38,552 nucleotides of DNA from the NCBI GenBank assembly GCA_016931455.1, contig JAFGES010000126.1, positions 1-38,552 on the forward strand. Reading direction: 5' to 3'. A model generated the notes under the pieces. That model was not told where the DNA came from, ran no database searches, and saw only the letters and a list, made by a program, of their open reading frames with translations. The DNA comes from Desulfobacterales bacterium (GTDB taxonomy: Bacteria; Desulfobacterota; Desulfobacteria; Desulfobacterales; JAHDSC01). Positions 22,025 to 38,187 of this stretch are shown here, in pieces. Made by a program: the position numbers and the translations under genes. How positions within the stretch are numbered: the first letter of the stretch is position 1; every line of letters starts with the position of its first letter.

Positions 22025-22040
22025 TGGCATATTTGTTGCT
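22025..22040 (+). promoter_or_regulatory. Sigma-54-type promoter for the FeeM-like gene
   Basis: TGGCATATTTGTTGCT keeps the invariant GG (-24) and GC (-12) with the exact 10-nt spacing of RpoN promoters. It also matches the consensus at TGGCA and TTGCT. Transcription would start near 22052, about 124 nt before the ATG. Sigma-54 promoters require an enhancer-binding activator; none is encoded in the window. Confidence 0.65.
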
Positions 22041-22175
22041 GAGTATTTATAGCTTATAGCAAAAAAACGTCGCCATATTTATTTTTGGAGATTTTAACTT
22101 CTTTTTACCACAATAATGCAAAGTTTAATTATGTATTTTAAAATTTCTCAATATATTACTTCAGAAGGTTAAATT

Positions 22176-23087
22176 ATGATGGCAATGACACCAAGTCGTC
22201 GAATTCTCTGGATGAAGCGTTCTTTATATTTAAAAGAAATTGTCAACGATCTAACTTACCCGATCATAAATATAAAATGGGCGGAAACTCAGGAAGAGCT
22301 GGAGCACGTATTCTCACTTGTGTATAAGGAATATTTAAAAGCAGGGTATATAGAAAAACCGGAATCGTCTAAAATATTTTTCAATATACATAACCTTCTG
22401 CCGACTTCAGCAGCTCTAATAATCAAATACGGAAAAGAAGTCATTTCAACTATGAGCATAATCATAGATAATAAATATTTTAAACTACCAATAGATAGCA
22501 CTTATCCGGATGAAATTGATGAATTGAGACAAAAAGGCCGTAATATCTGTGAATTTTCTGCGCTTGCAACTTCGCAGGATTTTCGTTGGCGCAATCTATT
22601 TGCCTATATATTTCGTGAGATGTATTGGTATGCTATGGAAAATAATATAAATGATATATGTATCATGGTAAACCCAAAACACGTCCCTTTTTATAAATCA
22701 ATTCTCCTTTTTGAGGATTTAGGAAAAGAAAAAATTTATTCCCGTTTAGGCGTCCCCGCAGTTGCATTAAGAATTAATCTGAACACCTGGGAAGAAAATT
22801 TGAAAAAAACTTATGGGGAATTAAAACCCGAATACAATTTATACAGTTTCGTCTCTGAAAGTACAAAAAGATCACCCAAAAGCCTTAGATTAAGGCTATC
22901 TTCAAAAAAGCGGCAAAGTCTAGATAACCATATAATTAACTATTTTCTTGCAAAAAATAAATATATTTTAAACAGTTTATCAACAAATCAGAAAAAATAC
23001 ATTTATAACCAAAACCAAAAAAATATGTCTATCTATCGCAATCATTCGGTTGATTCATTCCAAAAGACAGGAAGCGGATTATGCTAA
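22176..23087 (+). CDS. FeeM-like N-acyl amino acid synthase (GNAT fold)
   Basis: This resembles the FeeM family, GNAT-fold enzymes that transfer an acyl chain (from acyl-ACP) to the amino group of an amino acid such as tyrosine. Seen are LPTSAALIIKYGKEVISTMSI (75-95), the strongly conserved DSTYPDEIDELRQKG (107-121), CEFSALATSQDFR (125-137) and IMVNPKHVPFY (163-173), then GVPAVALRINL (192-202). Residues 1-200 carry the whole fold. The last 100 are Lys/Asn/Ser-rich, low in complexity and unfamiliar. AGAAGG precedes the ATG at good spacing. It is convergent with the next acyltransferase gene. Substrate and product are inferred from family only. Confidence 0.8.
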   Translation: MMAMTPSRRILWMKRSLYLKEIVNDLTYPIINIKWAETQEELEHVFSLVYKEYLKAGYIEKPESSKIFFNIHNLLPTSAALIIKYGKEVISTMSIIIDNKYFKLPIDSTYPDEIDELRQKGRNICEFSALATSQDFRWRNLFAYIFREMYWYAMENNINDICIMVNPKHVPFYKSILLFEDLGKEKIYSRLGVPAVALRINLNTWEENLKKTYGELKPEYNLYSFVSESTKRSPKSLRLRLSSKKRQSLDNHIINYFLAKNKYILNSLSTNQKKYIYNQNQKNMSIYRNHSVDSFQKTGSGLC

Positions 23088-23112
23088 CCTTTATTTCCAA
23101 GCCCTAAATTCT

Positions 23113-24303
23113 TCAAACAACAGCGATTGTGTCTTCAATAGCTCCTACGTCAAGGACATGGATATTCATATTTCGGTCAAGATCAATCCATTTTTTCTTT
23201 GACCACAATGCAACCAAATGTTCAAGCTCATTGAGCCAAATTCCAGATTGCTTAGCCAACCAGCCTATCTCGACGGGAACTTTTCCATTCCGTGATGCAT
23301 CTATTAGAATTCTTTTAATTAGAGATTCATATTGACTTGCTGAAGACCCTTCGATTTGTTGTCGTAATCGATTAGCTAGAATCTTACAAACCTCGAAACC
23401 CTTATTTCTATCATATTGCAATTGTTTTATAAAATCCAGGGGAGGCCATACCATCACATCCACCTCCCTGGAATTTGGAATTACGGTTTTTGTACGCTTC
23501 CCTCCGTCTATCAAAGAAATTTCACCAAATATCTGTCCCGGGCCCAATAAAACATCTTCATCAGATAAAGGCCCTTTATCATCGAAGTTTGGCAAAAATT
23601 TGTTATTTATTTTTGAAAATGGCAGTAATCTTACAGATCCCCGCATAATTAAAAAAACTTCATTCCCTGACTCTCCCTGTTTAATTATAATTTCATCTTT
23701 TTGATATATACGCCTTTCATCAGACTCGCTAAAAATCATTTGCAAAGGATCTTGTGATGCTTCACGCGTACCCGGAGGTAAGAGTTCAATATCGATATGA
23801 ATAGGGAGCATAGGAGTATTCAATCTTTCTGATAAAAATTCTTCACCAACGGGTTTTGCACTAAATGATTTCGCAAGCATATTAAAAAGAGGCGGATGTA
23901 AGGTAGCGAGAATATGCCTGGCGTTAACCTTCCTCATTTCTCTAACGCACATTTTTAATAAACCATGGATTAAGCCACGATGTTTTCTATACTTTTTCAA
24001 CGAACAAAACCAACCCAAGCATGCGCATTTTTCCTCTATCCGACCAATTAAATCAGTAAAATCATAATGTTCAAATGCGGGTAAACCAATTGGATTTTCA
24101 GTAGTTAGCCTGATAGTAGCTATAGGAATATCGTTTTTAAAAGCTAATATGTTGACAGTTTCTTCAAAACTATCATAACGATCAATAATATGGTCTGAAT
24201 GATGGCAAAAACGTTTTTCTTCCTCAACAAAAACTTTGTGTCTTAATTGATAAACATGATTTTTTTCTTCGGAGGTCTTAGCAATTTTTAAACAAATGGG
24301 CAT
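23113..24303 (-). CDS. GNAT/autoinducer-synthase-like acyltransferase fused to a cyclic-nucleotide-binding domain
   Basis: The domains read in order. Residues 1-180 resemble acyl-homoserine lactone or N-acyl amino acid synthases: YQLRHKVFVEEEKR (18-31), IATIRLTT, and the acyl-donor loop KYRKHRGLIHGLLKMC (104-119). Residues 193-310 form a cNMP-binding domain with DEIIIKQGESGNEVFLIMRGSVRL and a phosphate-binding cassette GEISLIDGGKRTKT (260-273) that keeps its Arg. The last 75 residues resemble a winged helix (GWLAKQSGIWLNELEHLV). The ATG at 24301-24303 (396 residues) is chosen because AGGAGA stands 5 nt before it; a longer frame from 24369 lacks this. Cyclic-nucleotide gating of acyl transfer is inference. 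Confidence 0.75.
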   Translation of the reverse strand: MPICLKIAKTSEEKNHVYQLRHKVFVEEEKRFCHHSDHIIDRYDSFEETVNILAFKNDIPIATIRLTTENPIGLPAFEHYDFTDLIGRIEEKCACLGWFCSLKKYRKHRGLIHGLLKMCVREMRKVNARHILATLHPPLFNMLAKSFSAKPVGEEFLSERLNTPMLPIHIDIELLPPGTREASQDPLQMIFSESDERRIYQKDEIIIKQGESGNEVFLIMRGSVRLLPFSKINNKFLPNFDDKGPLSDEDVLLGPGQIFGEISLIDGGKRTKTVIPNSREVDVMVWPPLDFIKQLQYDRNKGFEVCKILANRLRQQIEGSSASQYESLIKRILIDASRNGKVPVEIGWLAKQSGIWLNELEHLVALWSKKKWIDLDRNMNIHVLDVGAIEDTIAVV

Positions 24304-24405
24304 ACTTTCTCCTGATTTTACATAAGTTAGAAATTTGCAATCTGAAGAAGAGATAATAGAATTTATCAAAAACGTTCAAAGTCTTTAAAAATATTAAAAA
24401 ATTAT

Positions 24406-24421
24406 CGCAATAAACATACCA
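24406..24421 (-). promoter_or_regulatory. Sigma-54-type promoter for the acyltransferase-cNMP gene
   Basis: Read on the minus strand this is TGGTATGTTTATTGCG. It has the invariant GG and GC with 10-nt spacing, and TTGC at the -12 element. The start of transcription would be near 24395, about 92 nt before the start codon at 24303. The C of TGGC is replaced by T, so it is weaker than the site at 22025. Confidence 0.55.
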
Positions 24422-24588
24422 TTTAAGTTTAAAATTAAAAATCATATATATTCAGATAGTTATAATTTTTTTGATTAACCATTTTGAAAATTTATTAAAA
24501 ATATGACAATATTTGTTAACTTAAAGAACAAAAAGTGATATTGATTTAAATTTAATTTTTATGGTATTATTAATTATTTTTAAATGTC

Positions 24589-24605
24589 ATGAAATTCCAT
24601 TTCAT
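24589..24605. promoter_or_regulatory. Perfect 7-bp dyad, possible operator
   Basis: ATGAAAT (24589-24595) and ATTTCAT (24599-24605) flank TCC. The symmetry and the position between divergent promoters would suit a dimeric regulator. In such AT-rich DNA it could also be chance. Confidence 0.3.
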
Positions 24606-24898
24606 CGCAAATTTCTATAAAACATGCACTTTGAGGTTTTTTATGAAGTGATTAATTAAATGGCAGTTTATGATTAAGCTCTAAAGAATTGATTTTGGAA
24701 AATACATATGATTAGAAGATGAAAAAATGAAGACATGGATGTCAACAGTGCTTGATTCGTCACAAAAATCAATTTTTCACCTTTATGGAATTTAATTATG
24801 TCAGTCCCTGCCGTAATTCTAACAAAAATCAAAATGCCCAAATCTCCTTCAAAAATGCAGCTTAACTTTCAAAGGGCTACACTGTTACTATTTTTTTA

Positions 24899-24927
24899 TT
24901 TACAAATCACATCTTCTTACCGATATT
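24899..24927 (+). promoter_or_regulatory. Candidate sigma-70 promoter of the ABC exporter operon
   Basis: TTTACA (24899-24904) and GATATT (24922-24927) are separated by 17 nt, matching 5 and 4 of 6 consensus bases. The leader would be about 85 nt. AT-rich DNA gives many such matches, so confidence is modest. Confidence 0.35.
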
Positions 24928-24983
24928 CATAATATTAGCGATTTTCGATTTTATCATAAAAGTTTTTATTATATATGAAGAAA

Positions 24984-25018: not shown

Positions 25019-25699
25019 ATGGACGTGGTAAAAACAAAAAATCTCAACAAAGATTTTTTTTTGGGTAAAACTAAAATTCGAGCACTAATAGATATAAATA
25101 TTTCCGTTGAAAAAGGTGAATTTCTTGCTATAGCGGGACCATCGGGGAGTGGTAAAACTACCTTACTCAATTTAATCGGTTGCATTGATTTGCCTACTTC
25201 CGGAATTATCAGAATCGACTCAATCGATACCAACAGACTATCCTCAAATGAATTGGCAAATCTTAGAGCCTCAAAAATAGGATTTATATTCCAATCGTTC
25301 AATTTAATCCCGGTCTTCTCTGCACTTGAAAATGTTGAATATCCTCTTTTTAAAAAGAAAAAAAATAAAAAAGAGAGAAAAGAAATCGTAATGAAGGCCT
25401 TAGAGGATGTTGGAATTGAAAAATTTGCGAAGCATAAACCTGATGAGCTAAGTGGTGGTCAGCGACAACGAGTTGCCATTGCTAGGGCTCTTGTTACTAA
25501 TCCTAAAATCATACTGGCAGACGAACCAACTGCCAATCTTGATCAAAAAACCGGAGCAACGATTTTGGATATAATGAAAAAAATAAACGAAGAGCACAAA
25601 ACCGTTTTTATATTTTCAACCCATGATTCAAAGATCATGTCGATGGCAAACAGAATAATCCGAATAAGAGATGGAGCGATCATTTCCCGGGAAGTATAG
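25019..25699 (+). CDS. ABC transporter ATPase (LolD/MacB type)
   Basis: This 226-residue cytoplasmic ATPase is of the group that drives FtsX/MacB-fold permeases. Walker A is GPSGSGKTT (40-48), the Q-loop is IFQSFNLIP, the signature LSGGQRQR (144-151), Walker B IILADEP (164-170) and the H-loop STHD (200-203). The insertion PLFKKKKNKKERKE is unusually basic. It ends 3 nt before the permease gene. No clear Shine-Dalgarno site precedes the ATG. LolD family members power lipoprotein release or lipid/peptide export rather than import. Confidence 0.92.
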   Translation: MDVVKTKNLNKDFFLGKTKIRALIDINISVEKGEFLAIAGPSGSGKTTLLNLIGCIDLPTSGIIRIDSIDTNRLSSNELANLRASKIGFIFQSFNLIPVFSALENVEYPLFKKKKNKKERKEIVMKALEDVGIEKFAKHKPDELSGGQRQRVAIARALVTNPKIILADEPTANLDQKTGATILDIMKKINEEHKTVFIFSTHDSKIMSMANRIIRIRDGAIISREV

Positions 25700-25702: not shown

Positions 25703-26959
25703 ATGGAACTGCCTATAAGTCTACGCCTTTCTATTAGAAATGTTTTCCGAAACCGAATCAGATCATTTATTACGCTATCAGCAATAGCTTTTGGAGCCAT
25801 TTCTTTAATAATTGCAGGTGGTTTTTTTGAAGATTCTTTCATGCAGATGCGGGAGGCTTATATTCATAGTTATCTTGGGCACATCCAAGTACATAAAAAG
25901 GGTTTTAGCGATAAAGGGTCTGCAAAACCTTTTGAATATCTGATTGATGAACCCAATAAAATTATAACACTAATTTCATCCCTTGATCATGTAAAAATTG
26001 CTACACCTCGCATTTCTTTTTCAGGACTTTTAAGTGACGGAGAAAACACAATTTCCGTTCTTTGCCAGGGAATAGCGCCTAAAGGTGAAAAAGCTTTAAA
26101 TATAATCGATGAAACCAAGAACGAAAACAGAGGTTTAGGCATACAAGCTGGAGAGAATCTTTCAGAAAAAGATGAATTTGATTTAATTTTGGGGAAGGGT
26201 TTATCAAAAGCTGTGGAAAGTAGTATCGATAATTCCTTGGTTCTACTATCCAACACAGTTGACGGGGCGCTTAATGCTTTTGATTTAAATGTAAAAGGAA
26301 TATTTTTTACGGCATCCAAAGAATTTGACGACAGGACAATTCGAGTGCCGATTTCAACCGCTCAAAAGCTTCTTCGGACCGATAAAGTTCAAACACTTGT
26401 CGTCGTTTTAGATAAGACAAAATATACTACCCAAGTAAAAAATAATCTTCTCAGACTCTTAAAGGATAACAAAATCGGATTAGAAGTTAGAACATGGGAT
26501 GAAATGGCCGATTTTTATAATAAAACCGTTGAACTTTATGGTCGACAATTTTTCTTTCTCAAACTTATTATTTCTATCATTGTAGTTTTAAGTATTTTTA
26601 ATACCATAAACATGGCTATCTGGGAAAGGACTAGAGAGATAGGTACAATAATGGCGTTGGGTTTTAATAGATTTGATATTTTAAAGACATTCCTATTAGA
26701 AGGATTTATTTTAGGCACAATTGGAGGCATTATTGGAATAATAGGTGGCATCATCATGGCCTATCTTATTTCAATTATTGGAATACCTATGCCTCCTCCA
26801 CCTGGTGCGACAGTCAACTGGATAGCAATGATAAAAATAGTGCCTGAAATTCTTATTTCTGCATTCATTATATCTACTTTATCATCATTGATATCATCAT
26901 TTTATCCAGCATTCAAAGCTTCTCGGATGGTAATTGCGGATGCTCTTCGACACATATAA
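25703..26959 (+). CDS. ABC transporter permease (LolE/MacB, FtsX fold)
   Basis: This 418-residue inner-membrane permease has the four-helix FtsX/MacB layout. One helix follows NVFRNRIRSFITLSAIAFGAISLII (about 13-38), then a large periplasmic domain (about 40-275), then three helices (about 285-305, 333-360 and 375-400). The segment WERTREIGTIMALGFNRFDILKTFLLEG is the conserved coupling loop. It pairs with the ATPase just upstream. Together with the LolA-like and outer-membrane proteins downstream it suggests transport of a lipid-like substrate towards the outer membrane. Confidence 0.9.
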   Translation: MELPISLRLSIRNVFRNRIRSFITLSAIAFGAISLIIAGGFFEDSFMQMREAYIHSYLGHIQVHKKGFSDKGSAKPFEYLIDEPNKIITLISSLDHVKIATPRISFSGLLSDGENTISVLCQGIAPKGEKALNIIDETKNENRGLGIQAGENLSEKDEFDLILGKGLSKAVESSIDNSLVLLSNTVDGALNAFDLNVKGIFFTASKEFDDRTIRVPISTAQKLLRTDKVQTLVVVLDKTKYTTQVKNNLLRLLKDNKIGLEVRTWDEMADFYNKTVELYGRQFFFLKLIISIIVVLSIFNTINMAIWERTREIGTIMALGFNRFDILKTFLLEGFILGTIGGIIGIIGGIIMAYLISIIGIPMPPPPGATVNWIAMIKIVPEILISAFIISTLSSLISSFYPAFKASRMVIADALRHI

Positions 26960-26972
26960 GAGAGGCATAAGA

Positions 26973-27722
26973 ATGATCAAATCTTCACTAAAAAGGATTT
27001 ATTTTTTAATAATAATTTTGTTTCTCCCTATTCCCTGTCATGCTGATCCATCCGCCGAACAAATATTGAAACAAGCAGATGAAATCCGAAACCCTCAACA
27101 GGATTATAAAGTAATTGTTGATATTATCAGCAAAAAAGTAGGAGAAAAGGACAAATCAGCAAAATATGAAGTTTTAGTAAAAGGCAAAGAAAAAACTATT
27201 ATAAAAACGCTTTATCCAAGTGTTGATAGAGGAACATCTCTGCTTATGATCCATTATGACTTATGGGTATTTTTGCAGAGTATATCAAAACCTCTCAGGA
27301 TTTCATTTCAGCAAAGACTATTTGGAGAAGCTGCAAACGGTGACATTGCTAGGGCTAATTTCTCTGGTGACTATAATCCCAAACTACTACTAACTGAAAA
27401 AATAGATAAAAAAAGCTACTATGTTCTCGACCTTACCGCAAAGGATGAACGAGTCACCTATCAAAAAGTGATTCTTTGGGTCCAAAAGGATAATTTCCAT
27501 CCTTTCAAAGCGGAATTCTATGCTATCTCCGGTAAACTTTTAAAAACCTGTTCTTATGAAAATTATAAGGTAATATTGGGTCGTCTCAGGCCTACTCGAC
27601 TTGTCCTTGACAATGCTCTGAAACTCGGTCAAACATCAATTATAGAATATAGCAATATGACTCAGGAAAATTTTGCCGACAAATTTTTTAATAAAAACTA
27701 TTTAAAAAAACTTAAATATTGA
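26973..27722 (+). CDS. LolA-like outer-membrane lipoprotein-sorting protein
   Basis: This periplasmic protein is of the lipoprotein-sorting (COG2834-like) group. A signal peptide ends in IPCHA near residue 25, and DPSAEQILKQADEIRNPQQDYKVIVDI follows, typical of the family. The rest is beta-rich with LVKGKEKTIIKTLYPSVDRGTSLL and RISFQQRLFGEAANGDIARANFSGDY. The start at 26973 (249 residues) is chosen over 26934 because it has GAGAGG ahead of it, carries the signal peptide directly and avoids overlap with the permease gene. It probably shuttles a hydrophobic cargo between the ABC exporter and the outer membrane. Confidence 0.82.
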   Translation: MIKSSLKRIYFLIIILFLPIPCHADPSAEQILKQADEIRNPQQDYKVIVDIISKKVGEKDKSAKYEVLVKGKEKTIIKTLYPSVDRGTSLLMIHYDLWVFLQSISKPLRISFQQRLFGEAANGDIARANFSGDYNPKLLLTEKIDKKSYYVLDLTAKDERVTYQKVILWVQKDNFHPFKAEFYAISGKLLKTCSYENYKVILGRLRPTRLVLDNALKLGQTSIIEYSNMTQENFADKFFNKNYLKKLKY

Positions 27723-27781: not shown

Positions 27782-29134
27782 ATGCGTATATACATACCTG
27801 TAATTTTTATAACTATTTTATCTTTGGTCTTATTAGCCCTTACAAATCCTACTGTTTCCTTTTCCTCTAACATGTCGGAAGATTTTTTCAATGGCTTATC
27901 TTCAGATACCTTTTTGTTTTCGGGACAGATTAAAAACGAAACTGCCTATAGAACTTCTCATCCTAATCAAATTACAAAATTAAAAAATATTTTAAATATA
28001 AACTTATTAGGAGACATAACAACCACTGTTTCCTACAATTTATCCAGCCGTTTTTATTATGATGCTGTTTTTGATCTTTCCGGAAATTATAACAAAGAAG
28101 TGGAAAATAATCAGGAAAAAGAAGCTAAATTAAGAACAGCCTTTCTGGATTTCAATCTCGGAGATGTTGATTTGAGAATCGGAAAACAGCAAATCGTTTG
28201 GGGAGAAGCGGTTGGTCTTTTTTTTGCGGATATCATTAATCCCAAGGACCTTAGAGAATTTATTTTACCCGAATTAGGGGAAATTCGAATTCCGACATGG
28301 GCAACTGATATAGAATATTATTTTGATGATAATTACTTTGAATTTGTTTGGATACCAGTGCCGAAATTTAACAAATTCGGCACATTCGGCTCTGAATTCG
28401 ATTTTGAAAGGTTACAATCTATTCAAGAAAATATAAGTGTGATATATCTTGATAAAAAGGAACCGTCATCCAATCTTAAAAACAGTGAGTTTGGCTTCCG
28501 CATATCCCGCCTAATTGGAAATTGGGATTTAAGTATGTTCTACTTCTATGGCTACGATTATTTCCCTGTTAATTTTAGGGGCTACTTTAGCAACTCATCA
28601 AATCCAAATACGGTAATTATGGTAAGCCCGGAATATAAAAAAATAAATATATCCGGCATGACATTCTCAAGTGACTTCAATAATGTTATTTTAAAAGGCG
28701 AGTTTATCTTCAATAATAATAAATATTTTGAAGTGTCAGATCCATTAGATACCGATGGAGTTGTAAAAAAAGATTACCTGGATTATATATTGGGTATGAA
28801 TTACACATTCTTTGATCGAATAGATTCCAATTTTCAGCTTATGCAAAGAATTATCTTTAATTACGACAAAAAAATTCTTGAAGATGATGTTACGGTTTCT
28901 TTTTCAATCTGGCTAAAAACTAGTTTCTTAAATAATACCTTAGAACCCGAAATCTTTTTTGTGTCAAGCCTAAATAAGAAAGATCTAATGATTAGGCCCA
29001 AGCTAAGTTATACATTCGCAGATAATTGTAAGCTTACAATGGGTATAGATATTTTTGAAGGGGTATCGGATGGCTATTTTGGTCAGTTCGACGACAAGGA
29101 CAGGATTTATTTAGAATTGAGTTTTGATTTCTAA
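27782..29134 (+). CDS. DUF1302-like outer-membrane beta-barrel protein
   Basis: This 450-residue secreted protein has an N-terminal signal peptide (VIFITILSLVLLALTNP) and many alternating beta-strand segments. The motif VDLRIGKQQIVWGEAVGLFFADIINPKDLREFILPE matches the DUF1302 style of outer-membrane proteins (RIGxQxVxWGE...NP.DLRE). The last residues YLELSFDF end in Phe, as outer-membrane barrels usually do. It is placed directly after the LolA-like gene, 59 nt on, and no Shine-Dalgarno site is visible. It may be the receiver or exit pore for the exporter. Family call is by motif only. Confidence 0.7.
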   Translation: MRIYIPVIFITILSLVLLALTNPTVSFSSNMSEDFFNGLSSDTFLFSGQIKNETAYRTSHPNQITKLKNILNINLLGDITTTVSYNLSSRFYYDAVFDLSGNYNKEVENNQEKEAKLRTAFLDFNLGDVDLRIGKQQIVWGEAVGLFFADIINPKDLREFILPELGEIRIPTWATDIEYYFDDNYFEFVWIPVPKFNKFGTFGSEFDFERLQSIQENISVIYLDKKEPSSNLKNSEFGFRISRLIGNWDLSMFYFYGYDYFPVNFRGYFSNSSNPNTVIMVSPEYKKINISGMTFSSDFNNVILKGEFIFNNNKYFEVSDPLDTDGVVKKDYLDYILGMNYTFFDRIDSNFQLMQRIIFNYDKKILEDDVTVSFSIWLKTSFLNNTLEPEIFFVSSLNKKDLMIRPKLSYTFADNCKLTMGIDIFEGVSDGYFGQFDDKDRIYLELSFDF

Positions 29135-29207: not shown

Positions 29208-30296
29208 ATGTGTGAAAAAAAGATGATTAAATGCAAAATATGTCTTCTGCCTGCAATTGTTCCTGGCGTAATTATTGATAAACAAGGGATTTGCAACTTC
29301 TGTCGCAATTACGATAATGCCGATTTTTCTAATATGGAATCGGTTCGAAAGGAAAAAGAAGCGGATCTGGAAAAAGCACTAAATAACTGCAAAGGAAATG
29401 GTGTTTACGACTGCCTTGTCCCGGTAAGTGGCGGTAAGGACAGCATCTATCTATTATACAAGCTAAAAATAAAGTACGATTTGAAAATTTTAGCTTTTAC
29501 AACAAACATAAATATTCCTGAAATAGCTTGGAAAAACATAAAGCGGACAGTTAAAAAACTTGATATTGATCATATATCTTACAGCCCGTCTAAGCGTTTT
29601 TATAAAAAACTATTTCGATATTTGCTAAAAAATCAAGAAGAGCGGGGTGCAGTATATACTGTATCTTATGTATATGCACCACTTTTTGAAGGCGATGCGC
29701 TTAAGATTGCTATAGAAAAGAACATTCCACTTGTTTTAGCCGGATACTCGCCGGGTCAGCCTGAACCTGAAAGAATGTTCTACGAATTTTCACGATATTT
29801 GATTTCCAAAACAGACTGGACTCCACCAGAATTGAGAACGTGCGGATTTTTTAAGGAATCTGAACTTTCATATTTCTTTAACCCGCTTAGCTATCCATCT
29901 GATACTACCTTTCCAAGATATTTAGCTCCTTTTCACGCTTGGTCATACAATCAAGATGATATCATGAAAAAAGTTGTTAAATTAGGATTGGTGGACAGCA
30001 GCAAACACGCAAATCCAATCTATAGCAATTATCCAATTAACTGGCTTTTAATGTACTCAGATCTTAAAAATTTTGGCTATAATCCATATCATCCTGAATT
30101 TTCAAAATTAATTCGGGAAGGTAAAGCCAACCGTACCTATTGGAAAATCATGGCACCTGTGGTCAATTTCATGATTAGGCGAAAAGCCTTTCTTGGACAA
30201 AATATCACTAAGAGTCTCAAATGGTTGGAGCTTAACACGAGCGATCTAAAGATTACTCGTGCCAGGGGTGCATATGATCCTTTACCGGGGCCTTAA
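29208..30296 (+). CDS. PP-loop ATP pyrophosphatase, sugar-amidotransferase-like (WbpG/PseA type)
   Basis: This 362-residue enzyme resembles N-acetyl sugar amidotransferases. Four Cys form an N-terminal metal site, CKIC (9-12) and CNFC (29-32), followed by the adenylating PP-loop VPVSGGKDS (71-79) and LKILAFTTNINIPEIAWKNIKRTVKKLDIDH. The C-terminal half (DSSKHANPIYSNYPINWLLMYSDLKNFGYNPYHPEFS) is specific and less familiar. WbpG works with a HisH-type glutaminase, but none is nearby. It could adenylate and amidate a sugar, or a carboxylate made by this locus. The first ATG is used; a second at 29223 is possible. Confidence 0.7.
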   Translation: MCEKKMIKCKICLLPAIVPGVIIDKQGICNFCRNYDNADFSNMESVRKEKEADLEKALNNCKGNGVYDCLVPVSGGKDSIYLLYKLKIKYDLKILAFTTNINIPEIAWKNIKRTVKKLDIDHISYSPSKRFYKKLFRYLLKNQEERGAVYTVSYVYAPLFEGDALKIAIEKNIPLVLAGYSPGQPEPERMFYEFSRYLISKTDWTPPELRTCGFFKESELSYFFNPLSYPSDTTFPRYLAPFHAWSYNQDDIMKKVVKLGLVDSSKHANPIYSNYPINWLLMYSDLKNFGYNPYHPEFSKLIREGKANRTYWKIMAPVVNFMIRRKAFLGQNITKSLKWLELNTSDLKITRARGAYDPLPGP

Positions 30297-30402: not shown

Positions 30403-32253
30403 ATGAAAAAGAAAATATTAATGGCCTCGGAAACCATCCCGAGCCTATTGAAGGCCCGTGCCCAACAGTCTCCCGAAACTGTTGCGCATTGGACAATTGA
30501 TGGTTTCGGCACATGGCAGCCTACTACGTGGAGGGAATTCCACCATACTGTTTCTATATTAGCGGCAGGCCTTCAAAATATAGGACTATCCCCTGGGCAA
30601 AAGATCGGTCTAATGGCCCCGACCTCACAAACCTGGGAGTACTTGCAAATGGCTATCCTTATGGCAGGGGGTATTATTATAGGAATTGACCCGCACGATC
30701 TTGATGAAAATATTAACGAGATCGCCAACCGAACTGAACTTGCCGGACTTATCATACAGAATCCGAGTTTACTAAAAAAAATATCATCTAATGTACGCAG
30801 TAACTTGAACTTTATCATAGGGATAGATTGCTCTTCCAAGGATAATGATTTTGAAAACTTCTTTAAGTTAAGTGATCTACAAAAAACGAAAAATGAATAT
30901 TGCTTTTCCAATAGACTAAACAGCAATGATCCGGCAACGATTATTTTTACTTCAGGCACGACAGGTACTCCCAAGGGTATTATGTATACACACGCCCAAA
31001 TCTTCCTGGCTTGTAAGTCTATACTTGAAACTTTCGATGATGTAGAAGAAGGAAATAAACTTGTCTGCTGGCTTCCACTTTCAAATCTTTTCCAGCGAAT
31101 GATCAATTTTTGCGCAATCGCCATTGGTGCATCAACTTATTTCGTAGAAAATCCTCAAGATGTTCTTAAATATATTCCATCAATAAACCCTCATTTCTTC
31201 GCCGGAGTGCCTCGATTTTTTCAAAAATTATATTCAGGGATCAGGGAAGAAATAGATCAGAAATCTGTATGGATACAAAAATTAATTGAATGGGCTCTTA
31301 AAGTTGGTGACACTCATGCCTGTTCTTTGCGGAGTAAGAAAACACCGCCACTTTCTACACGGATTTTTTACAAAGTTCTTGATCCGCTAATCCTCAAACG
31401 CATCAGACAGCTCATGGGATCAAATCTCAAGTATATAGTAAGCGGATCTGCTCCCATGCCGCAATGGCTACTTGAACGGTTTCATGCTATGGGCATCTTG
31501 ATATTAGAAGCCTATGGAATCAGTGAAAATATTATTCCTATAGCAGCAAATCAAGTTAACGCTGTAAAATTCGGAACTGTGGGTAAGCCACTGTCTGGAA
31601 ATAACATCAGACTTTTAAATGATGGGGAGTTGGTGGTAAAAGGACCAGGTGTATTTTCAGGATATTATAATGACGAATCTCAAGAAGGCTCACTAAAATC
31701 AGATGGATATTTAGCGACTGGTGACTACGCGAAAATAGACAATGAGGGCTTTATAACCTTAACCGGTAGAAAAACTGAAATCTTCAAAATATCCACCGGT
31801 AGACGAATTGCACCTGCTGCAATAGAAGAGCGCATACGTAGAGTAGCATATATCGACCATGCTGTAGTTTTCGGTGCCGGAAAAAATTTTTTGATCGCAC
31901 TTCTCTCGATTTCTTTGCCACTTTTTCTCAAGCAGGCCAAAAAACTCAACCCTACATTTACTATAAATAAAGCAAACATTCCAACTGCTTTTTATAACAG
32001 CATAAAATTCGATGTAATTCAAGAAATTGCCCAACTGCCTAAATATAAGCATCCAGCAGGATTCCTACTTACTACCCATCCTTTTACCATTAACGGAGGT
32101 GAATTAACTGCCAATCTCAAGCTGCGCCGAAAAAACATTGAAATAAAATTTAAGAAACAGATCAGTCAACTTTATGCAAAATTAAAAGAAACTCACGAAT
32201 CTGGAAATAGAGTGTTCGATAACGCTAATAATATTATTATCTATGAAATATGA
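30403..32253 (+). CDS. Long-chain acyl-CoA synthetase (AMP-binding)
   Basis: This 616-residue adenylate-forming enzyme resembles FadD15-type long-chain acyl-CoA synthetases. Motif TIIFTSGTTGTPKG lies at about 180-193. The segments LEAYGISE, LATGDYAKIDNEGFITLTGRKTEIFKISTGRRIAP and the C-terminal GELTANLKLRRK follow; the Lys in this last motif is the catalytic one. No carrier-protein or condensation domain is attached. It overlaps the next gene by 4 nt (ATGA), a sign of translational coupling with the reductase. Activation of a fatty acid to acyl-AMP or acyl-CoA is the expected reaction; the chain length is unknown. Confidence 0.88.
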   Translation: MKKKILMASETIPSLLKARAQQSPETVAHWTIDGFGTWQPTTWREFHHTVSILAAGLQNIGLSPGQKIGLMAPTSQTWEYLQMAILMAGGIIIGIDPHDLDENINEIANRTELAGLIIQNPSLLKKISSNVRSNLNFIIGIDCSSKDNDFENFFKLSDLQKTKNEYCFSNRLNSNDPATIIFTSGTTGTPKGIMYTHAQIFLACKSILETFDDVEEGNKLVCWLPLSNLFQRMINFCAIAIGASTYFVENPQDVLKYIPSINPHFFAGVPRFFQKLYSGIREEIDQKSVWIQKLIEWALKVGDTHACSLRSKKTPPLSTRIFYKVLDPLILKRIRQLMGSNLKYIVSGSAPMPQWLLERFHAMGILILEAYGISENIIPIAANQVNAVKFGTVGKPLSGNNIRLLNDGELVVKGPGVFSGYYNDESQEGSLKSDGYLATGDYAKIDNEGFITLTGRKTEIFKISTGRRIAPAAIEERIRRVAYIDHAVVFGAGKNFLIALLSISLPLFLKQAKKLNPTFTINKANIPTAFYNSIKFDVIQEIAQLPKYKHPAGFLLTTHPFTINGGELTANLKLRRKNIEIKFKKQISQLYAKLKETHESGNRVFDNANNIIIYEI

Positions 32254-33380
32254 AAACTTATTTTATTACAGGAGCAACCGGCGCGATCGGGTGTGCTATC
32301 GTACCTTTGCTACTGAAAAATGATGACTGTCAAGTTAGGCTATTGATGCGGGCAAAAAACCATCAAGACCTTGAAAATAGATTAGCCAAGTTAATGACAT
32401 TTTGGGGATATGTTTCGAATCAAAACAAAATCCTTTGCCGCATCAAGGCTATCCCCGGAGATATAACCCTACCCCGTTTCGGTACGAATCAGAAAGAATA
32501 TGAAGGATTAAGCTATGAATGCACCCATATTATTCACAGTGCCGGTAATGTAAGAATGAATTTACCATTGGAAGAAGCCCGCAAGTGCTCTGTAGATTCA
32601 GCCCATAATATTATGGGTTTTGCTGAAGCATGCCGACAACGGGGTAATCTTAAAAAGGTAGAATTTGTGAGTACGGTAGGGGTAGGAGGGCGAAATCCTG
32701 GTTTAATACCGGAGACATGGATCACAAATAAACGTGGATTCCATAATACCTACGAAGAGGCCAAGGCAGAATCGGAAATATTCATCGCCCAACAAATCAA
32801 GAATGAAATGCCCGTTACAGTCCACAGACCCAGTATGGTTGTGGGTGATTCTAAAACAGGGAGGATTATTCATTTTCAAATTTTTTACCATCTATGCGAA
32901 TTTCTGTCAGGTAGCCGGACCCTCGGTATAACACCTGATGTTCAGAATACTTTATTAGATATAATTCCTTCGGACTATGTCGCACGTGCAATCGCATGGT
33001 CCTGCAACCAAGATGCCACAGTCGGCCATATTCTCCATTTATGTTCAGGTCCGGATAAAGCTATTGAGATTAATGATTTAAAAACTAAAATCCAAGACAT
33101 TTTTAAATCCTATGGTAAAAAATTGCCGAAAACAATTTCAGTGCCGATAAATCTGTTTCGAGTCAGCCTTCCCATCATTAGATTGTTCATCTCGCCGAGA
33201 GCTAAACGTGCCCTTAAGGCCCTGCCTATTTTCTTTGAATATCTGGCCGAGCACCAATCGTTTGCAAATCAAAGTACCCAAGCATTGTTGTCCCCTGAAG
33301 GAATTGTAGTACCACCCATAAGGGACTACTTGGAAATAATTTTAACCTATTATCTTAGGCACACCCATGGCCTATTTTAA
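32250..33380 (+). CDS. Thioester/fatty-acyl reductase-like protein (NAD-binding 4)
   Basis: This 376-residue extended-SDR enzyme resembles the reductase domain of carboxylic acid reductases and fatty-acyl-CoA reductases. The Rossmann motif GATGAIG is at 8-14. The segment HIIHSAGNVRMNLPLEEARKCSVDSAHNI contains the typical region after the nucleotide site. The catalytic set is S141 (STVGV), Y168 and K172 (YEEAK). Its C-terminal EHQSFANQST and IRDYLEIILTYYLR are common in this family. Overlap with the acyl-CoA synthetase suggests that an activated acyl chain is reduced to an aldehyde or alcohol. Confidence 0.82.
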   Translation: MKTYFITGATGAIGCAIVPLLLKNDDCQVRLLMRAKNHQDLENRLAKLMTFWGYVSNQNKILCRIKAIPGDITLPRFGTNQKEYEGLSYECTHIIHSAGNVRMNLPLEEARKCSVDSAHNIMGFAEACRQRGNLKKVEFVSTVGVGGRNPGLIPETWITNKRGFHNTYEEAKAESEIFIAQQIKNEMPVTVHRPSMVVGDSKTGRIIHFQIFYHLCEFLSGSRTLGITPDVQNTLLDIIPSDYVARAIAWSCNQDATVGHILHLCSGPDKAIEINDLKTKIQDIFKSYGKKLPKTISVPINLFRVSLPIIRLFISPRAKRALKALPIFFEYLAEHQSFANQSTQALLSPEGIVVPPIRDYLEIILTYYLRHTHGLF

Positions 33381-33415
33381 TTTATAATGAACCCAAAAAA
33401 TCATTTTCTCAAGTG

Positions 33416-34699
33416 ATGGGGGCAATAACGAGAATGTCCAAATCGTTCCAAGGCACCAATAATAGTAACCGTAAAAGAATACTTTTTATTGCAGAAGCGG
33501 TCACTCTTGCTCATGTCGTAAGGTCAATTGCATTAGCCGAAACAATAGACACCTGTCGTTATAACATTTATTTTGCGTTTGATCCCCGGTATAATCATAT
33601 TATTGGAAAATTACCGTTTGCTTACAAACCTATTAACAGCATAACGAGCAAGCACTTCCTTACTTGTGTAGTAAAAGGCCAAACCGGATACGATGTAACC
33701 ACCCTCCGTGCATATATCAAGGATGACTTGAAGCTTTTTCGTGAGATTCATCCAGACATAATTGTAGGGGATTTTCGACTATCTCTGATGATTAGCTCTC
33801 GGATAGCAGGAAAGCCGTACATGGGAATATGCAATGCTTACTGGAGCCCATATGTGAAACACCATTTCTTGCCCGTACCAGAGCACCCTTTTACCAGAAT
33901 TTTTGGAGTTTGGCTCACCCGGCAAATTTTCAATCTTGCTAAGCCCCTGATATTTAAACGCCTCGCGCTTCCATGGATAAAGATACTCCGAGAATATGAT
34001 ATGCCAAGCAACGGTCTTGATCTACGCAAAGTCTTCACTCAAGGCGATAAAACTTTGTATGCAGATTTACCTCAGTTGATCCCTACCTCAAAATTACCCC
34101 CTTCACATCATTTCATTGGTCCTATATTGTGGTCAGCACCTGTTTCACCACTCAAATGGTGGGATAAACTATCCGAGGAAAAACCGATTGTTTATGTAAC
34201 ACTTGGAAGTTCCGGAGATTACAGCCTGCTACCGGAAATTTTTTCAGCTATGAAGGAGTTACCAATAACAGCTATCGTCGCAACAGCAGGCGGCAACAAT
34301 CCCACAGACGTACCGAATAACATATTCACCGCTGATTATCTGCCCGGAGAAGAAGCTGCAAAACGAGCAAAACTGGTAATTTGTAACGGCGGCAGTCCAA
34401 CAACTTACCAGGCACTGGCCGCCGGTGTTCCGGTGCTTGGAATCCCCAGCAACCTCGACCAATACCTCAATATGCTCTACCTGCAGCGAGCCGGCCTCGG
34501 GTTATTAGTCCGCTCAGGTAAGGCTACTAAACAAATTCTTTATCAAACAATTAGCGAGATGCTAAACAATCCCTCCTATCGAAATTCTGCCGAATCCTAT
34601 CGACAATACATGAAATTATTTTCGCCACAAGATATTTTTCCCCGGCTTGTGGAATCAGCTTTGGAAGATGGGGTTCCCCAATCGCTTACCCATTATTAA
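33416..34699 (+). CDS. MGT-type glycosyltransferase (GT1-like)
   Basis: This 427-residue UDP-sugar-type glycosyltransferase has the GT-B fold. The N-terminal acceptor domain starts RKRILFIAEAVTLAHVVRSIALAETI. The C-terminal donor domain starts PIVYVTLGSSGD, and the donor-binding segment reads CNGGSPTTYQALAAGVPVLGIPSNLDQYLNM, like the PSPG box of macrolide and natural-product glycosyltransferases. The start is ambiguous: GTG at 33413, ATG at 33416 or ATG at 33434; I took 33416. It follows the reductase by 35 nt and may glycosylate its product. No membrane segment is obvious. Confidence 0.85.
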   Translation: MGAITRMSKSFQGTNNSNRKRILFIAEAVTLAHVVRSIALAETIDTCRYNIYFAFDPRYNHIIGKLPFAYKPINSITSKHFLTCVVKGQTGYDVTTLRAYIKDDLKLFREIHPDIIVGDFRLSLMISSRIAGKPYMGICNAYWSPYVKHHFLPVPEHPFTRIFGVWLTRQIFNLAKPLIFKRLALPWIKILREYDMPSNGLDLRKVFTQGDKTLYADLPQLIPTSKLPPSHHFIGPILWSAPVSPLKWWDKLSEEKPIVYVTLGSSGDYSLLPEIFSAMKELPITAIVATAGGNNPTDVPNNIFTADYLPGEEAAKRAKLVICNGGSPTTYQALAAGVPVLGIPSNLDQYLNMLYLQRAGLGLLVRSGKATKQILYQTISEMLNNPSYRNSAESYRQYMKLFSPQDIFPRLVESALEDGVPQSLTHY

Positions 34700-34767: not shown

Positions 34768-35565
34768 TCAATTTCCTTTGGGGGGTTGAAACATGCGCGC
34801 CACCGTTTTGATCACCATCTTTACCGGAAACAAGGCTGTAAAGACACGCTGTTTGTAAGTTCCTTTGGCAGTTATCACCAATGGCGCATCCCCTGCCAAA
34901 TGAGCAAGGGATGTCTTTACCACCGTATCGGTACTTTCTCTACCCTTTAAGGCGCTGGCATAGGCGCCTGCAACGGTATCAAACTCAGTCTCCGTCGGCC
35001 CAGGCACCAGGGTCTGAACCAGGACGCCGCGGTCTCTCCACTCTCCGTAAAGAGCTTGGCTAAAGCTGGAAACAAAGGCCTTGGTGGCCGCATAAACAGC
35101 CATGTAGGGAATAGGATTATAAGCTGCCGGGGAGGAAACATTGATAATGACGGAGGTCGGAAACGAGCTTAGATCCTCCAAAAAATGATGACATAAAGAA
35201 ACCATTGCCATCTCATTCAATCTGATCATCTCCTCGTAAACCTCAGCAGGGGTCGCTTCAAATCTTCCCCAGCGTCCAAAAGCCGCATTATTAACAAGCA
35301 TGCGTACTTTAACTCCCTCAGTCACCAAATGAGATCTGATCTCAGATATGGCATTGGTACGACTCAAATCGACCGGCAGTATCAAGGCCCGGACCTCATA
35401 TCGCTGAGACAACTTTGATCCTAGGATATCTAAAAGAGGCTTGCGTCTTGCGACAAGTACCATGTTCATGCCGACGGCGGCAAGCTGCAAGGCAAATTCA
35501 CGGCCTATCCCCGATGATGCACCTGTAACCAGGGCCCAGTTGCCTTTCGCTTCTTCCAGTTTCAT
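34768..35565 (-). CDS. Classical short-chain dehydrogenase/reductase
   Basis: This 265-residue NAD(P)-dependent SDR shows TGASSGIG (14-21), DLS, NNAAFG (92-97), catalytic S145 (INVSSPAA) and YAATK (Y158, K162), then PGPTETEF. GGGGGA precedes the ATG. It lies 26 nt downstream of the GMC oxidoreductase on the same strand, so both probably share one transcript. The two genes are clearly richer in GC than the genes from 22 to 33 kb. The substrate is unknown; oxidation or reduction of a hydroxyl or keto group of a lipid is a natural guess. Confidence 0.9.
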   Translation of the reverse strand: MKLEEAKGNWALVTGASSGIGREFALQLAAVGMNMVLVARRKPLLDILGSKLSQRYEVRALILPVDLSRTNAISEIRSHLVTEGVKVRMLVNNAAFGRWGRFEATPAEVYEEMIRLNEMAMVSLCHHFLEDLSSFPTSVIINVSSPAAYNPIPYMAVYAATKAFVSSFSQALYGEWRDRGVLVQTLVPGPTETEFDTVAGAYASALKGRESTDTVVKTSLAHLAGDAPLVITAKGTYKQRVFTALFPVKMVIKTVARMFQPPKGN

Positions 35566-35591
35566 TTAATTAATTCCCCCATATTATTGAA

Positions 35592-37232
35592 TCATGATGC
35601 TTTCAACATTTTTTCGGAAACGCGTAAGGCGTTTGCCGCAATTGTCAGACCGGGATTTGTACCCCCACTGGATGGAAAAAAGGAACTGTCCACCACATAT
35701 AAATTAGATAGACCATGGGCCTTATTGTTGGCATCGAGCACACTTTCATTCGGATCCAGACCAAAGCGACAAGTGCCACACACATGAGCAAGTCTTTCGT
35801 TGTTTTCCGCCTGTTTGATAAGCATAAAACGATAGGGCTTTAAAATCGCTCGGAGTTTTTCACGAAAGGCCTTGATCCTGGCGCTGTCACTTTCGCGGCT
35901 GCGATACTTGATGATAAGTCGACTTCGACCATGACTGTCGGGCTGTTCCGAGAGCATCACGCGATTGTCCTTGATAGGCAGGTCTTCCATTATGGCAGCT
36001 AATATAATGCTGCGAGAAAAAAGATGTCCGAGGATGGATTTCACTACCGGCTTTGCCAACTTAAAAAGCCAAGCAGCCGATGGCAAAGGACTATCACGTA
36101 ACTCCTGCTCCATGCTTTCGACAATGACCGGCCCAGGCGGCATCGCTCCGAAAGACTGAACGGTGCCAAACTTTTGCCCTCCATCAATGTAAAAATCGTT
36201 GAAGGCGATCTCCTTGAGATTGCCGGGAAGTCCTTCACGGATTTTAGGAAAGACCGCGTAAAGATCAATATAATGGCGCATTAAATTTTTGCCAACCAAC
36301 CCTGAATCATTAGCCAAGCCATACGGCCATGCCGGAGAGGCCGAGTCCAATAAAATTCTCGGAGTTGCCAGAGCTCCGGCCGCAAGCACGACTATCTTTG
36401 CCCTTAAGGTCAATTCATGCCTATGCCAAGAACACACCACCCCTCTGACTGCGCTTTGTGTGGCTTCCAGCTTCAAGACCTCACAGTCATCCAGCAGATG
36501 GGCGCTGAATTGTGTCAGTGCCGGCTCCAGACAAATCCGGGCACTGTCATTTCTGCAGTCGTGGCCACAGAGGAAACCTTGACAGCCCTGACAACCCGAA
36601 ACATATTCACAAGCACTGGGCAACCGGTATGGATGAAGCCCCTTTGCGCGCAGAAAATCCTCCAACTCCCGGGAACCGGGACAAGGCGACGGTGGAGGAA
36701 GAAGTTCCGATGTCTCGTTGCCTCGAAGTGGATCAGGAGTGCCACGCACCCGATAGAGCCGTTCCGCCTCCTCATAATAGGGTTGTAACTCTTCATAGGT
36801 TATTGGCCAGCAGTCCGGCAACGTTGATTCAGTTGTGTCTTGATAATGGCGTCTTGGAGTAAAATCGGCGGAGAAGAAGCGCTCCATGGCCATACCGTAT
36901 ATAGCAGAAGAGCCGCCTGTGCCAGAACCAATGAAAGGGATAAAGCGGCGGGAGCGCGCAGTAGACAAGTCTTCGACTTCTTCCCAACAGCGACCGGCCC
37001 GGCCCAGGATTTCGCAATGTTTGGGTTGAGGAACTTCTGGTCGTGCGAAAAAAGTTTCCGCATAATCACCGCACAATGCACGCATGTCACTCAAGTGCGA
37101 TCTGCCCTTCTCGCAGAACAAAACACTTTTGCCAGCCTTAGCCAAAGCATAACCCAGAGTCGCGCCACCCATACCCGTACCAACAATGATGACGTCCCAT
37201 TTGCGTTGCACTAAGTCAGCCGTTTCTGTCAT
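35592..37232 (-). CDS. GMC-family FAD oxidoreductase
   Basis: This 546-residue flavoenzyme is related to glucose-methanol-choline oxidoreductases. The FAD site is DVIIVGTGMGGATLGYALAKAG (13-34). GSGTGGSSAIYGMAMERF follows, then the C-terminal HVCGTCRFG with the active-site His, and FFPSSGGTNPGLTIAANALR. A Cys-rich insertion, CEYVSGCQGCQGFLCGHDC (about 208-226), is unusual for simple alcohol oxidases and may bind a metal or cluster. A GAGGAA Shine-Dalgarno site precedes the ATG. It is the first gene of a minus-strand pair with the SDR. The substrate is unknown. Confidence 0.87.
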   Translation of the reverse strand: MTETADLVQRKWDVIIVGTGMGGATLGYALAKAGKSVLFCEKGRSHLSDMRALCGDYAETFFARPEVPQPKHCEILGRAGRCWEEVEDLSTARSRRFIPFIGSGTGGSSAIYGMAMERFFSADFTPRRHYQDTTESTLPDCWPITYEELQPYYEEAERLYRVRGTPDPLRGNETSELLPPPSPCPGSRELEDFLRAKGLHPYRLPSACEYVSGCQGCQGFLCGHDCRNDSARICLEPALTQFSAHLLDDCEVLKLEATQSAVRGVVCSWHRHELTLRAKIVVLAAGALATPRILLDSASPAWPYGLANDSGLVGKNLMRHYIDLYAVFPKIREGLPGNLKEIAFNDFYIDGGQKFGTVQSFGAMPPGPVIVESMEQELRDSPLPSAAWLFKLAKPVVKSILGHLFSRSIILAAIMEDLPIKDNRVMLSEQPDSHGRSRLIIKYRSRESDSARIKAFREKLRAILKPYRFMLIKQAENNERLAHVCGTCRFGLDPNESVLDANNKAHGLSNLYVVDSSFFPSSGGTNPGLTIAANALRVSEKMLKAS

Positions 37233-37397
37233 TTTTCATTCCTCTAAAACCAATGATATTCCGATCCCAGATCCCTGTTGATAGCCGGAAGCCTGCCTGA
37301 ATTGATATAGTTCTCCGATTCCCGGAATTCGGTTTTCTTACATTCGCTTAGCACTATACTTCTCAATAAGGTCCACTCCAAATTTCTCTCCATGGTA

Positions 37398-38187
37398 TTA
37401 TTTCTTCAGGATAGCCTGCAGCCGTTGCGCCTTTTCAGCATAGGATGGATTAGCAAATACTGCATCAATAGCATTTAACAGAACTTCAGGATTTTTTTTA
37501 AACTCCTTCCAGGTAAGCGACTTGCCGACTCCTACTCCTAACGCCACCACCCTCCGCATATTAAAACCCTGATCTGGGATGGTCGGTATTCCGATGATGG
37601 GTTTACCGTGGAGTAAGGCCTGATAAATGGTTCCATTTCCACCGTGACAAACCACCAGGTCGCTCTCCTTCCTTACCAAATCACCATCAATAAAAGATTC
37701 AGTGAGTAATTCAAGCCTCTTCCAAAGCGCTGTATCTCTTTGTACAAGTTGCTCGGGTATCCCACTCAAAGAAGGGAAAGTAAGGAAGCGCCCTGTACTC
37801 AGTGGATGAGACGTTTACTATTGCGGCATGCCTTATTCCTGCGATATGGGTCGATATGGGTGCTGTGAACCCGCGATCGGTAAGGACAATGTCAGGGGCT
37901 ACTTTACTATAAAGGTCAATATCCGCCTCTATCATCCGCTCAATTTCTTGATCGCTCACAAACCTGAGTTTCCCCTTAGGAATATTGCCAAAAATCACAT
38001 CCGGGTCAGGCTCATAAAGGGGAAGTACTCTGAAACCTTCCTGTTGGATGAATTTTGCTTTGGAACTCTCACCGGCAAAAACCATCTCATGGCCCCTCTC
38101 TCTGAGTTTCTTTGCCAGCAGCAGCGGACGACTTATATGAGAGATAGTGTGAGCATAGGGGACACAGAAAATTTTTTTGAGTCTCAA
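37398..38187 (-). pseudogene. Broken MGT-type glycosyltransferase (frameshift plus internal deletion)
   Basis: The N-terminal half is read from 38187 down (LKKIFCVPYAHTISHISRPLLLAKKLRERGHEMVFAGE and APDIVLTDRGFTAPISTHIAG). It runs out of frame in the sequence after PYFPFFEWDT near 37770. The C-terminal donor domain continues in another frame from there: RKESDLVVCHGGNGTIYQALLHGKPIIGIPTIPDQGFNMRR. The two pieces together span about 790 nt, enough for only some 263 residues, against about 420 in the intact relative at 33416. About 150 residues between the halves seem to be missing, so a simple sequencing error is unlikely to explain it. It once paired with the GMC-SDR strand. Confidence 0.75.

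Follow-up and report, generated by a model that had tools for sequence, protein, structure and literature searches.

We analysed a gene block in a 38,552-base stretch of DNA (hereafter the window), which is the whole of contig JAFGES010000126.1, ending at 38552, from the assembly GCA_016931455.1 of a Desulfobacterales bacterium (~3.4 Mb in 133 contigs, 97% complete). The initial annotation had listed in this block a FeeM-like N-acyl amino acid synthase, a second acyltransferase with a cyclic-nucleotide-binding domain, a LolDE-type ABC pair with LolA-like and outer-membrane partners, a sugar-amidotransferase-like enzyme, an acyl-CoA synthetase with a thioester reductase, a glycosyltransferase, a short-chain dehydrogenase/reductase (SDR) and a GMC oxidoreductase, and had read them as one system that makes and delivers an acylated, glycosylated lipid. 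As judged by profile searches of the window proteins, every one of the named families is indeed present, all located at 22176-37232. At the centre of the block lie genes for a NASAT-like PP-loop enzyme, a free-standing acyl-adenylating ligase (ACS) and a free-standing thioester reductase (TR), which form an operon that recurs across phyla in genomes with PEP-CTERM/exosortase systems. The features of the block are as follows:

22025..22040, + strand: candidate -24/-12 sigma-54-type promoter upstream of FeeM1 (TGGCAC-N5-TTGCW, 1 mismatch)
22176..23087, + strand: FeeM1, FeeM-type N-acyl amino acid synthase (PF21926, 160.4 bits)
23113..24369, - strand: second FeeM-type acyltransferase, with a C-terminal cyclic-nucleotide-binding (cNMP) domain (PF21926, 59.3 bits; PF00027, 41.1 bits)
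25019..25699, + strand: LolD-like ABC ATPase (TIGR02211, 240 bits, below the cut-off of 307.75)
25703..26959, + strand: LolE/MacB-type permease (PF02687, PF12704)
26934..27722, + strand: LolA-like periplasmic carrier (PF17131, 160.2 bits)
27782..29134, + strand: DUF1302 outer-membrane protein (PF06980, 67.6 bits)
29208..30296, + strand: NASAT/WbuX-like PP-loop ATP-pyrophosphatase, the marker of the module (PP-loop SGGKDS, four zinc-ligand cysteines)
30403..32253, + strand: ACS, free-standing acyl-adenylating ligase (PF00501, 212.4 bits)
32250..33380, + strand: TR, free-standing thioester reductase (PF07993, 166.1 bits; TIGR01746)
33413..34699, + strand: GT1, UGT/GT28-type glycosyltransferase (PF06722, PF04101)
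34768..35565, - strand: SDR (PF00106), probably outside the system
35592..37232, - strand: GMC oxidoreductase (PF05199, PF00732), a doubtful member
37362..38187, - strand: remnant of a second glycosyltransferase, its middle missing

A scan with an alignment of the NASAT-like protein, covering 84,980 named species by one genome each, yielded 54 loci, in records titled as Pseudomonadota, Desulfobacterota, Omnitrophota and Kiritimatiellae lineages. The loci were picked by two NASAT-like peptide patterns, so that they sample this one clade; near copies are included (L085 and L105 are identical, L102 and L112 almost so), and many of the contigs are short. In these loci the window's NASAT-like protein has counterparts of 56-75% identity. 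Six-frame labelling with profiles built from the locus protein clusters, the window's own proteins included, found ACS in 50 of the 54 loci, TR in 47, FeeM and an exosortase-associated acyltransferase in 17 each, LolE in 17, the LolA-like carrier in 15, DUF1302 in 14, LolD-type ATPases in 11 (a label that takes in looser ABC ATPases, such as the one beside a BPD-type permease in L117), GT1 in 7 and MMPL permeases in 6. The NASAT-ACS-TR operon is kept in records titled as Desulfobacterota, Pseudomonadota and Omnitrophota lineages, and the single Kiritimatiellae locus has the NASAT-like gene and ACS without a TR label. The three genes lie at operon distances: the gap between the NASAT-like gene and ACS has a median of 1 bp and is at most 100 bp in 37 of 40 cases (42 with duplicates), and that between ACS and TR has a median of -4 bp and is at most 100 bp in 33 of 35 (37 with duplicates), the counts of 40 and 35 excluding three genomes counted twice. 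In the window itself ACS and TR overlap by 4 bp. The NASAT-like gene, ACS and TR are a tightly coupled operon.

Larger parts of the block travel with this operon. Four relatives from the same order (G020, G236, G368 and G386) carry an MMPL permease gene, the NASAT-like gene, ACS and TR in that order, with LolA-like, DUF1302, and FeeM-family or exosortase-associated acyltransferase genes nearby; in G386 the MMPL gene is fragmented and ACS is cut off by the contig end. The Propionivibrio locus (L111) has FeeM, NASAT-like, ACS, TR and GT1 genes in one direction, with the same order as in the window from the NASAT-like gene to GT1. Within 15 kb, the Azoarcus locus (L101) encodes DUF1302, FeeM, LolA, the NASAT-like enzyme, ACS, TR, a PEP-CTERM protein and GT1, together with two LolE genes and an exosortase-associated acyltransferase. 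As a control, four genes from outside the block (FadL, ThiC, TMPS and the open reading frame (ORF) at 20176) were compared by blastp with the ORFs of 100 aa or longer from the 54 named loci and seven further stretches; none had a match at E 1e-8, and the recurrence is therefore far beyond chance. Recurring adjacency in other genomes, set beforehand as the test of a single system, was found for FeeM1 through GT1. Pairwise-distance correlations (NASAT-ACS r 0.64, NASAT-TR 0.66, ACS-TR 0.91; the underlying tree lacks L060, L062 and L064, whose genomes are present under other ids) mix shared ancestry with linkage, and we do not rely on them.

Further families recur near the core. A FAD_binding_4 oxidase of ~550-780 aa (cluster c7), absent from the window block, is found in 18 of the 54 loci (L066, L071, L075, L076, L079, L080, L088, L096 and L098 among them) and could act on the same product. 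A methyltransferase (cluster c13) lies near the core in 11 loci and an HprK-related kinase A (TIGR04352, cluster c20) in 6; L086, L089, L092, L093, L105, L109 and others show this recurrence of one or the other. L086 and L105 come from bins titled Klebsiella pneumoniae, but the loci cluster with those of uncultured Gammaproteobacteria, and the bins probably bear the wrong name.

Many environmental Gram-negative bacteria have PEP-CTERM/exosortase systems, which are linked to exopolysaccharide. This context, left out of the initial annotation, is the strongest comparative signal. The exosortase family PF09721 is matched in 44 of 50 NASAT-like-positive genomes (43 over the cut-off), as compared to 61 of 185 genomes of the Methylomonas class (59 over the cut-off; 2 known carriers in the sample) and 172 of 389 genomes of the window's order (167 over the cut-off; 4 known carriers); Fisher tests, which ignore relatedness, give p values of 1e-12 and 2e-9, respectively. 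All four order relatives carrying the NASAT-like gene have an exosortase. XrtA-type genes are encoded in the 54 loci themselves (PrsK in 12, PrsR in 9, EpsB_2 in 8 and PrsT-type in 11), and a PEP-CTERM-like C-terminus, as judged by a text pattern and not by Pfam, is encoded in 34. A tally of 44 of the 54 loci bearing some exosortase-associated marker counts FeeM among the markers, and we do not rely on it. The window genome holds 11 PF07589 PEP-CTERM matches versus none in any of 14 control genomes.

The NASAT family is defined by a PP-loop together with a tetracysteine motif, according to excerpts of PMC10607449. The PP-loop SGGXDS (S74 to S79) is invariant in 38 aligned sequences, and SGGKDS is found in 49 of the 52 members of the NASAT cluster, some of which are truncated; the cysteines of the CXXC...[GN]XCXXC zinc site (C9, C12, C29 and C32) are present in the window protein and in at least 90% of the 38 sequences, with the full pattern in 43 of the 52. 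The AlphaFold model of the window protein (pLDDT 92.1) aligns with LpNASAT (PDB 8wex, 8wex_B) over 325 residues with a Z score of 23.0 and an rmsd of 5.1, the next-best fold being a tRNA thiolase with a Z score of 12.5. The score against the WbuX subfamily TIGR03573 (120.5 bits) is under the curated cut-off of 203.2, and in a quick tree the clade separates from 17 further NASAT-like proteins of the order (SH-aLRT 99), with long branches leaving its deeper placement unsure. The tree took 17 of the 22 NASAT-family loci L119-L140, omitting L131 and L138 (module members already in) and L123, L128 and L137 (no ORF with both motifs), as well as L060, L062 and L064 (their genomes being covered by other ids), L097, L107 and L112.

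Of the alignment columns of the 38 sequences, 91 are invariant and a further 55 reach at least 90% agreement. Such conservation is high given the breadth of hosts, although the alignment covers 38 of the 52 cluster sequences and these were found by conserved patterns, which favours high conservation. So many invariant columns in such diverse hosts suggest that the enzyme may act on one fixed substrate. A second NASAT-like protein of the window genome (G000:C29:20133-21173) lies outside the exosortase-linked clade.

Both window acyltransferases exceed the PF21926 cut-off of 27 bits, and FeeM1 also matches the structure of FeeM (PDB 2g0b, E 2e-10). Homologues of FeeM1 occur near the NASAT-like gene in other phyla, and a FeeM gene is the next one upstream of it, 103-265 bp off, in L075, L078, L096, L098 and L111. 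FeeM-family matches were detected in 43 of the 50 NASAT-like-positive genomes (41 over the cut-off), as compared to 9 of 58 order genomes (8 over the cut-off), a sample that takes in the window genome and one other carrier. Neither window protein reaches the cut-off of the exosortase-linked family TIGR03694 (exosort_acyl, 111.95 bits): FeeM1 has no listed match and the cNMP protein scores 21.7 bits. Full-length homologues of the latter are rare, the sole carrier among the 54 loci being L117 of Desulfohalobiaceae (49% identity over 386 residues), where the gene adjoins a FeeM1 homologue in the same arrangement as in the window. The FGE and the arginine of the phosphate-binding cassette seem to be kept in the window protein, a hint of cAMP/cGMP control. 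That N-acyl amino acid synthases are linked with exosortases has reportedly been published already, going by the title of a 2011 paper by Craig et al. The one phenotype that we found near this system comes from a Methylomonas sp., in whose genome the two FeeM-family matches lie ~50 kb and ~2 Mb from the NASAT-like gene; in Methylomonas sp. LW13, genes have been disrupted and complemented (PMC11072679). The genome of L099 (G421, titled Kiritimatiellae) has 15 FeeM-family matches, an unusual expansion.

ACS is a single adenylating ligase, its nearest solved relative being an acyl-ACP synthetase. TR is nearest to MxaA (PDB 4u7w, E 1.9e-29), a terminal reductase of a myxobacterial pathway, and 39 of 40 aligned TR sequences have the YxxxK motif, the remaining one having a gap there. 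No carrier, condensation or ketosynthase domain was found among the scanned block genes, and a nonribosomal peptide synthetase (NRPS), polyketide synthase (PKS) or carboxylic acid reductase (CAR) was rejected on this ground. GT1 has homologues of 38-43% identity in 7 of the 54 loci, and in L111 the gene follows immediately after TR.

Of the exporter-type proteins, the LolD-like ATPase has blastp homologues (45-59% identity) in 6 of the 54 loci, the permease (36-43%) in at least 14, and the DUF1302 protein in 14. Elsewhere the exporter genes come either as LolD/LolE or as MMPL. The permease scores 111.5 bits versus the curated LolC/E cut-off of 362.45. While the family assignments behind the LolDE-type and sugar-amidotransferase labels stand, LolD, LolE and WbuX all score below the curated NCBIfam cut-offs, so that the proteins can be called only 'like' these. 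True LolCDE lipoprotein export was rejected, given these scores and the joining of the genes to biosynthesis genes. The LolA-like carrier is close to the LolA-superfamily protein NE2245 (PDB 3buu, E 2.2e-74), the name of which presumably points to Nitrosomonas europaea; an N. europaea strain carries the locus (L080).

No SDR homologue was found in any of the 54 loci, and homologues of the GMC oxidoreductase occur in two (L096, 55%; L075, 47%). The block, which the initial annotation had run to 38187, ends in a broken gene: 37362-38187 is a second glycosyltransferase, to which an intact 412-aa relative from L053 aligns only at its residues 6-144 and 294-407, the two kept parts (62-68% identical) lying ~50 bp apart. 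This L053 relative has a FeeM1 homologue and a PEP-CTERM gene in its vicinity, and the 54 loci hold only GT1-type paralogues of the second glycosyltransferase. The GC content rises from 0.32-0.37 (FeeM1 to the NASAT-like gene) through 0.39-0.44 (ACS to GT1) to 0.50-0.51 (SDR and GMC genes), the last lying above the core; because it changes in this way along the block, the right end may have a history different from that of the core. The proposal of one system is supported for 22176-34699 (FeeM, exporter, LolA-like, DUF1302, NASAT-like, ligase, reductase and GT1), is not supported for the SDR and the second glycosyltransferase, and is weakly supported for the GMC oxidoreductase.

The sigma-54-type candidate lies ~135 bp before the FeeM1 start codon and is weak, and no second clear motif was found upstream of FeeM1. 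Sites with up to 2 mismatches number 17 in the window, as compared to a mean of 16.68 in shuffles, and sigma-54 control in the window was set aside. The 54 loci contain 46 sites (up to 1 mismatch, intact GG/GC) in a raw count made without a shuffle comparison; 20 of these lie within 400 bp before a same-strand ORF, 13 of them preceding a PEP-CTERM-like gene and the other seven preceding DUF1302 (2), FeeM, PrsT, LolE and two unlabelled ORFs. We treat the sites before PEP-CTERM-like genes as a lead only.

Taken at somewhat better than even confidence, the reading that we favour is an accessory lipid pathway of a PEP-CTERM/exosortase surface system, with delivery of the product to the outer membrane. 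The substrates, order of steps, product and direction of transport given here are those that we infer from the protein families. The FeeM-type enzyme would acylate an amino acid or similar amine; ACS would activate a carboxylic acid, which could be the resulting N-acyl amino acid or else a fatty acid, and TR would reduce the activated acid to an aldehyde or alcohol. The NASAT-like enzyme would add nitrogen at the expense of ATP. According to excerpts of PMC10607449, NASATs condense ammonia with a sugar's N-acetyl group, releasing water. The amide in an N-acyl amino acid is of this same type, which makes the FeeM product a candidate substrate. GT1 may attach a sugar, and the LolDE-like pair (an MMPL permease in close relatives), the LolA-like carrier and the DUF1302 barrel would carry the product across the envelope. 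The predicted product is an N-acyl-amino-acid-derived lipid, amidated, reduced at its carboxyl group and possibly glycosylated. An acylated product delivered to the outer membrane, as first proposed, remains the simplest reading, its glycosylation resting on GT1 in 7 of the 54 loci.

Several observations weigh against this reading. Neither PF09721 nor TIGR04178 (at its cut-off) detected an exosortase in the window genome, for which an assembly gap is the likeliest cause, and 6 of the 50 carrier genomes also have no exosortase match. The NASAT-like gene (E 1e-60) is found in only 5 of the 389 order genomes, the window genome included, and in 2 of the 185 class genomes, the centre genome included. 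Exporter genes are present in 26 of the 54 loci only, many contigs being short, and export may therefore be dispensable or depend on genes at another site. Those NASAT relatives with proposed roles act on sugars, and the substrate here could therefore also be a sugar. Finally, we found neither an enzyme activity nor a product for any of the module's proteins.

The molecule that receives the sorted protein is left unidentified by published models, as far as excerpts of PMC7468200 and PMC1569441 go. A general exosortase acceptor made by the module was rejected because the NASAT-like gene is so rare among exosortase genomes (5 and 2 carriers, although 172 and 61 genomes have an exosortase); the module is an accessory to a minority of exosortase systems, and could serve at most a subset. 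A specific version of this idea is that FeeM would supply an N-acyl amino acid, the amide of which the NASAT-like enzyme would convert to an amidine, and that ACS and TR would reduce the neighbouring carboxylate to an aldehyde closing onto the amidine, giving a 2-alkyl-imidazole-type lipid that would act as the acceptor for the PEP-CTERM proteins of some exosortases. Given the rarity of the module, we consider this combination very unlikely.

The sugar chemistry of the NASAT relatives invites another reading, in which the module decorates a polysaccharide: the NASAT-like enzyme would make an acetamidino sugar as in O-antigen pathways, GT1 would transfer it, and ACS and TR would provide an aldehyde or acyl group for an exopolysaccharide (EPS) made by neighbouring EPS genes. 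The NASAT fold and motifs, the XrtA-type EPS genes in some loci (notably EpsB_2) and the occasional GT1 fit this account, which we regard as a minority possibility to be taken seriously; however, the scanned block genes include no dedicated sugar-nucleotide pathway gene, the NASAT-like clade stands apart from the other proteins of the order and below the TIGR03573 cut-off, and FeeM, ACS and TR indicate acyl chemistry. A further reading is a secreted, diffusible lipid signal or surfactant derived from an N-acyl amino acid and controlled by cAMP/cGMP through the acyltransferase with the cNMP domain, the link to exosortases being regulatory only. The acyltransferase family does resemble autoinducer synthases (PF00765 matches the G020 acyltransferase, below the cut-off), and the window acyltransferase carries the cNMP domain, but this protein has its full-length homologue in one locus only, no LuxR-type receptor gene was seen among the scanned block genes, and partners such as the LolA-like carrier and DUF1302 point to the outer membrane as the destination; we think a signal unlikely. 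That the block is an accidental island of unrelated genes is hardly credible: while its GC content varies and the SDR and second glycosyltransferase are not conserved, many genomes have the core with hardly any spacing between its genes, and the four genes outside the block do not recur. An accidental neighbourhood is refuted for FeeM1 to GT1, but may hold for the SDR, for which we keep it, and for the GMC oxidoreductase.

Set beside known systems, the accessory lipid pathway that we favour combines familiar parts in a different way. With the NASATs WbuX, WbpG and LpNASAT (8WEX) the window enzyme shares the PP-loop, the tetracysteine zinc site and the fold over its whole length, whereas it belongs to a separate clade with conserved C-terminal motifs of its own, and its gene shares an operon with genes for acyl chemistry. 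FeeM1 is a clear PF21926 member like FeeM and the PEP-CTERM-linked N-acyl amino acid synthases, from which the missed exosort_acyl cut-off sets both window proteins apart. As in CAR enzymes and NRPS terminal reductases such as MxaA, an adenylation enzyme and a thioester reductase are encoded together; unlike in CAR, each is a protein of its own, and no intervening carrier domain was found.

The exporter recalls AmeABCD of Castellaniella (RND, DUF1302, DUF1329), a proposed monoterpene envelope exporter, the deletion of which lowered monoterpene tolerance; according to excerpts of PMC6394551, it too pairs a DUF1302 outer-membrane protein with a LolA-superfamily periplasmic protein. Relatives of the window locus also have an MMPL/RND-type permease, whereas the window has the LolDE-like ABC pair, no RND pump, and a connection to biosynthesis genes. 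The Wbp/Vim pathway for the type IX secretion anchor likewise ties an amidated, amino-acid-bearing unit to protein sorting, but in the excerpts of PMC7468200 its WbpS is AsnB-type and not a NASAT and its product is a sugar, and we saw no homology behind the likeness. Neither the NASAT-ACS-TR module nor its exporter partners were found described in the open literature, most subscription journals lying outside the search.

The locus is a compact, conserved acyl-chemistry operon beside exosortase systems, and it provides a defined gene set and a product class to seek. It places a NASAT-type enzyme in what appears to be lipid and not lipopolysaccharide chemistry, together with a stand-alone ligase/reductase pair. 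Even without a role as an anchor, the module would probably make an undescribed lipid in genera such as Nitrosomonas, Methylomonas and Aromatoleum, where the carriers include named strains.

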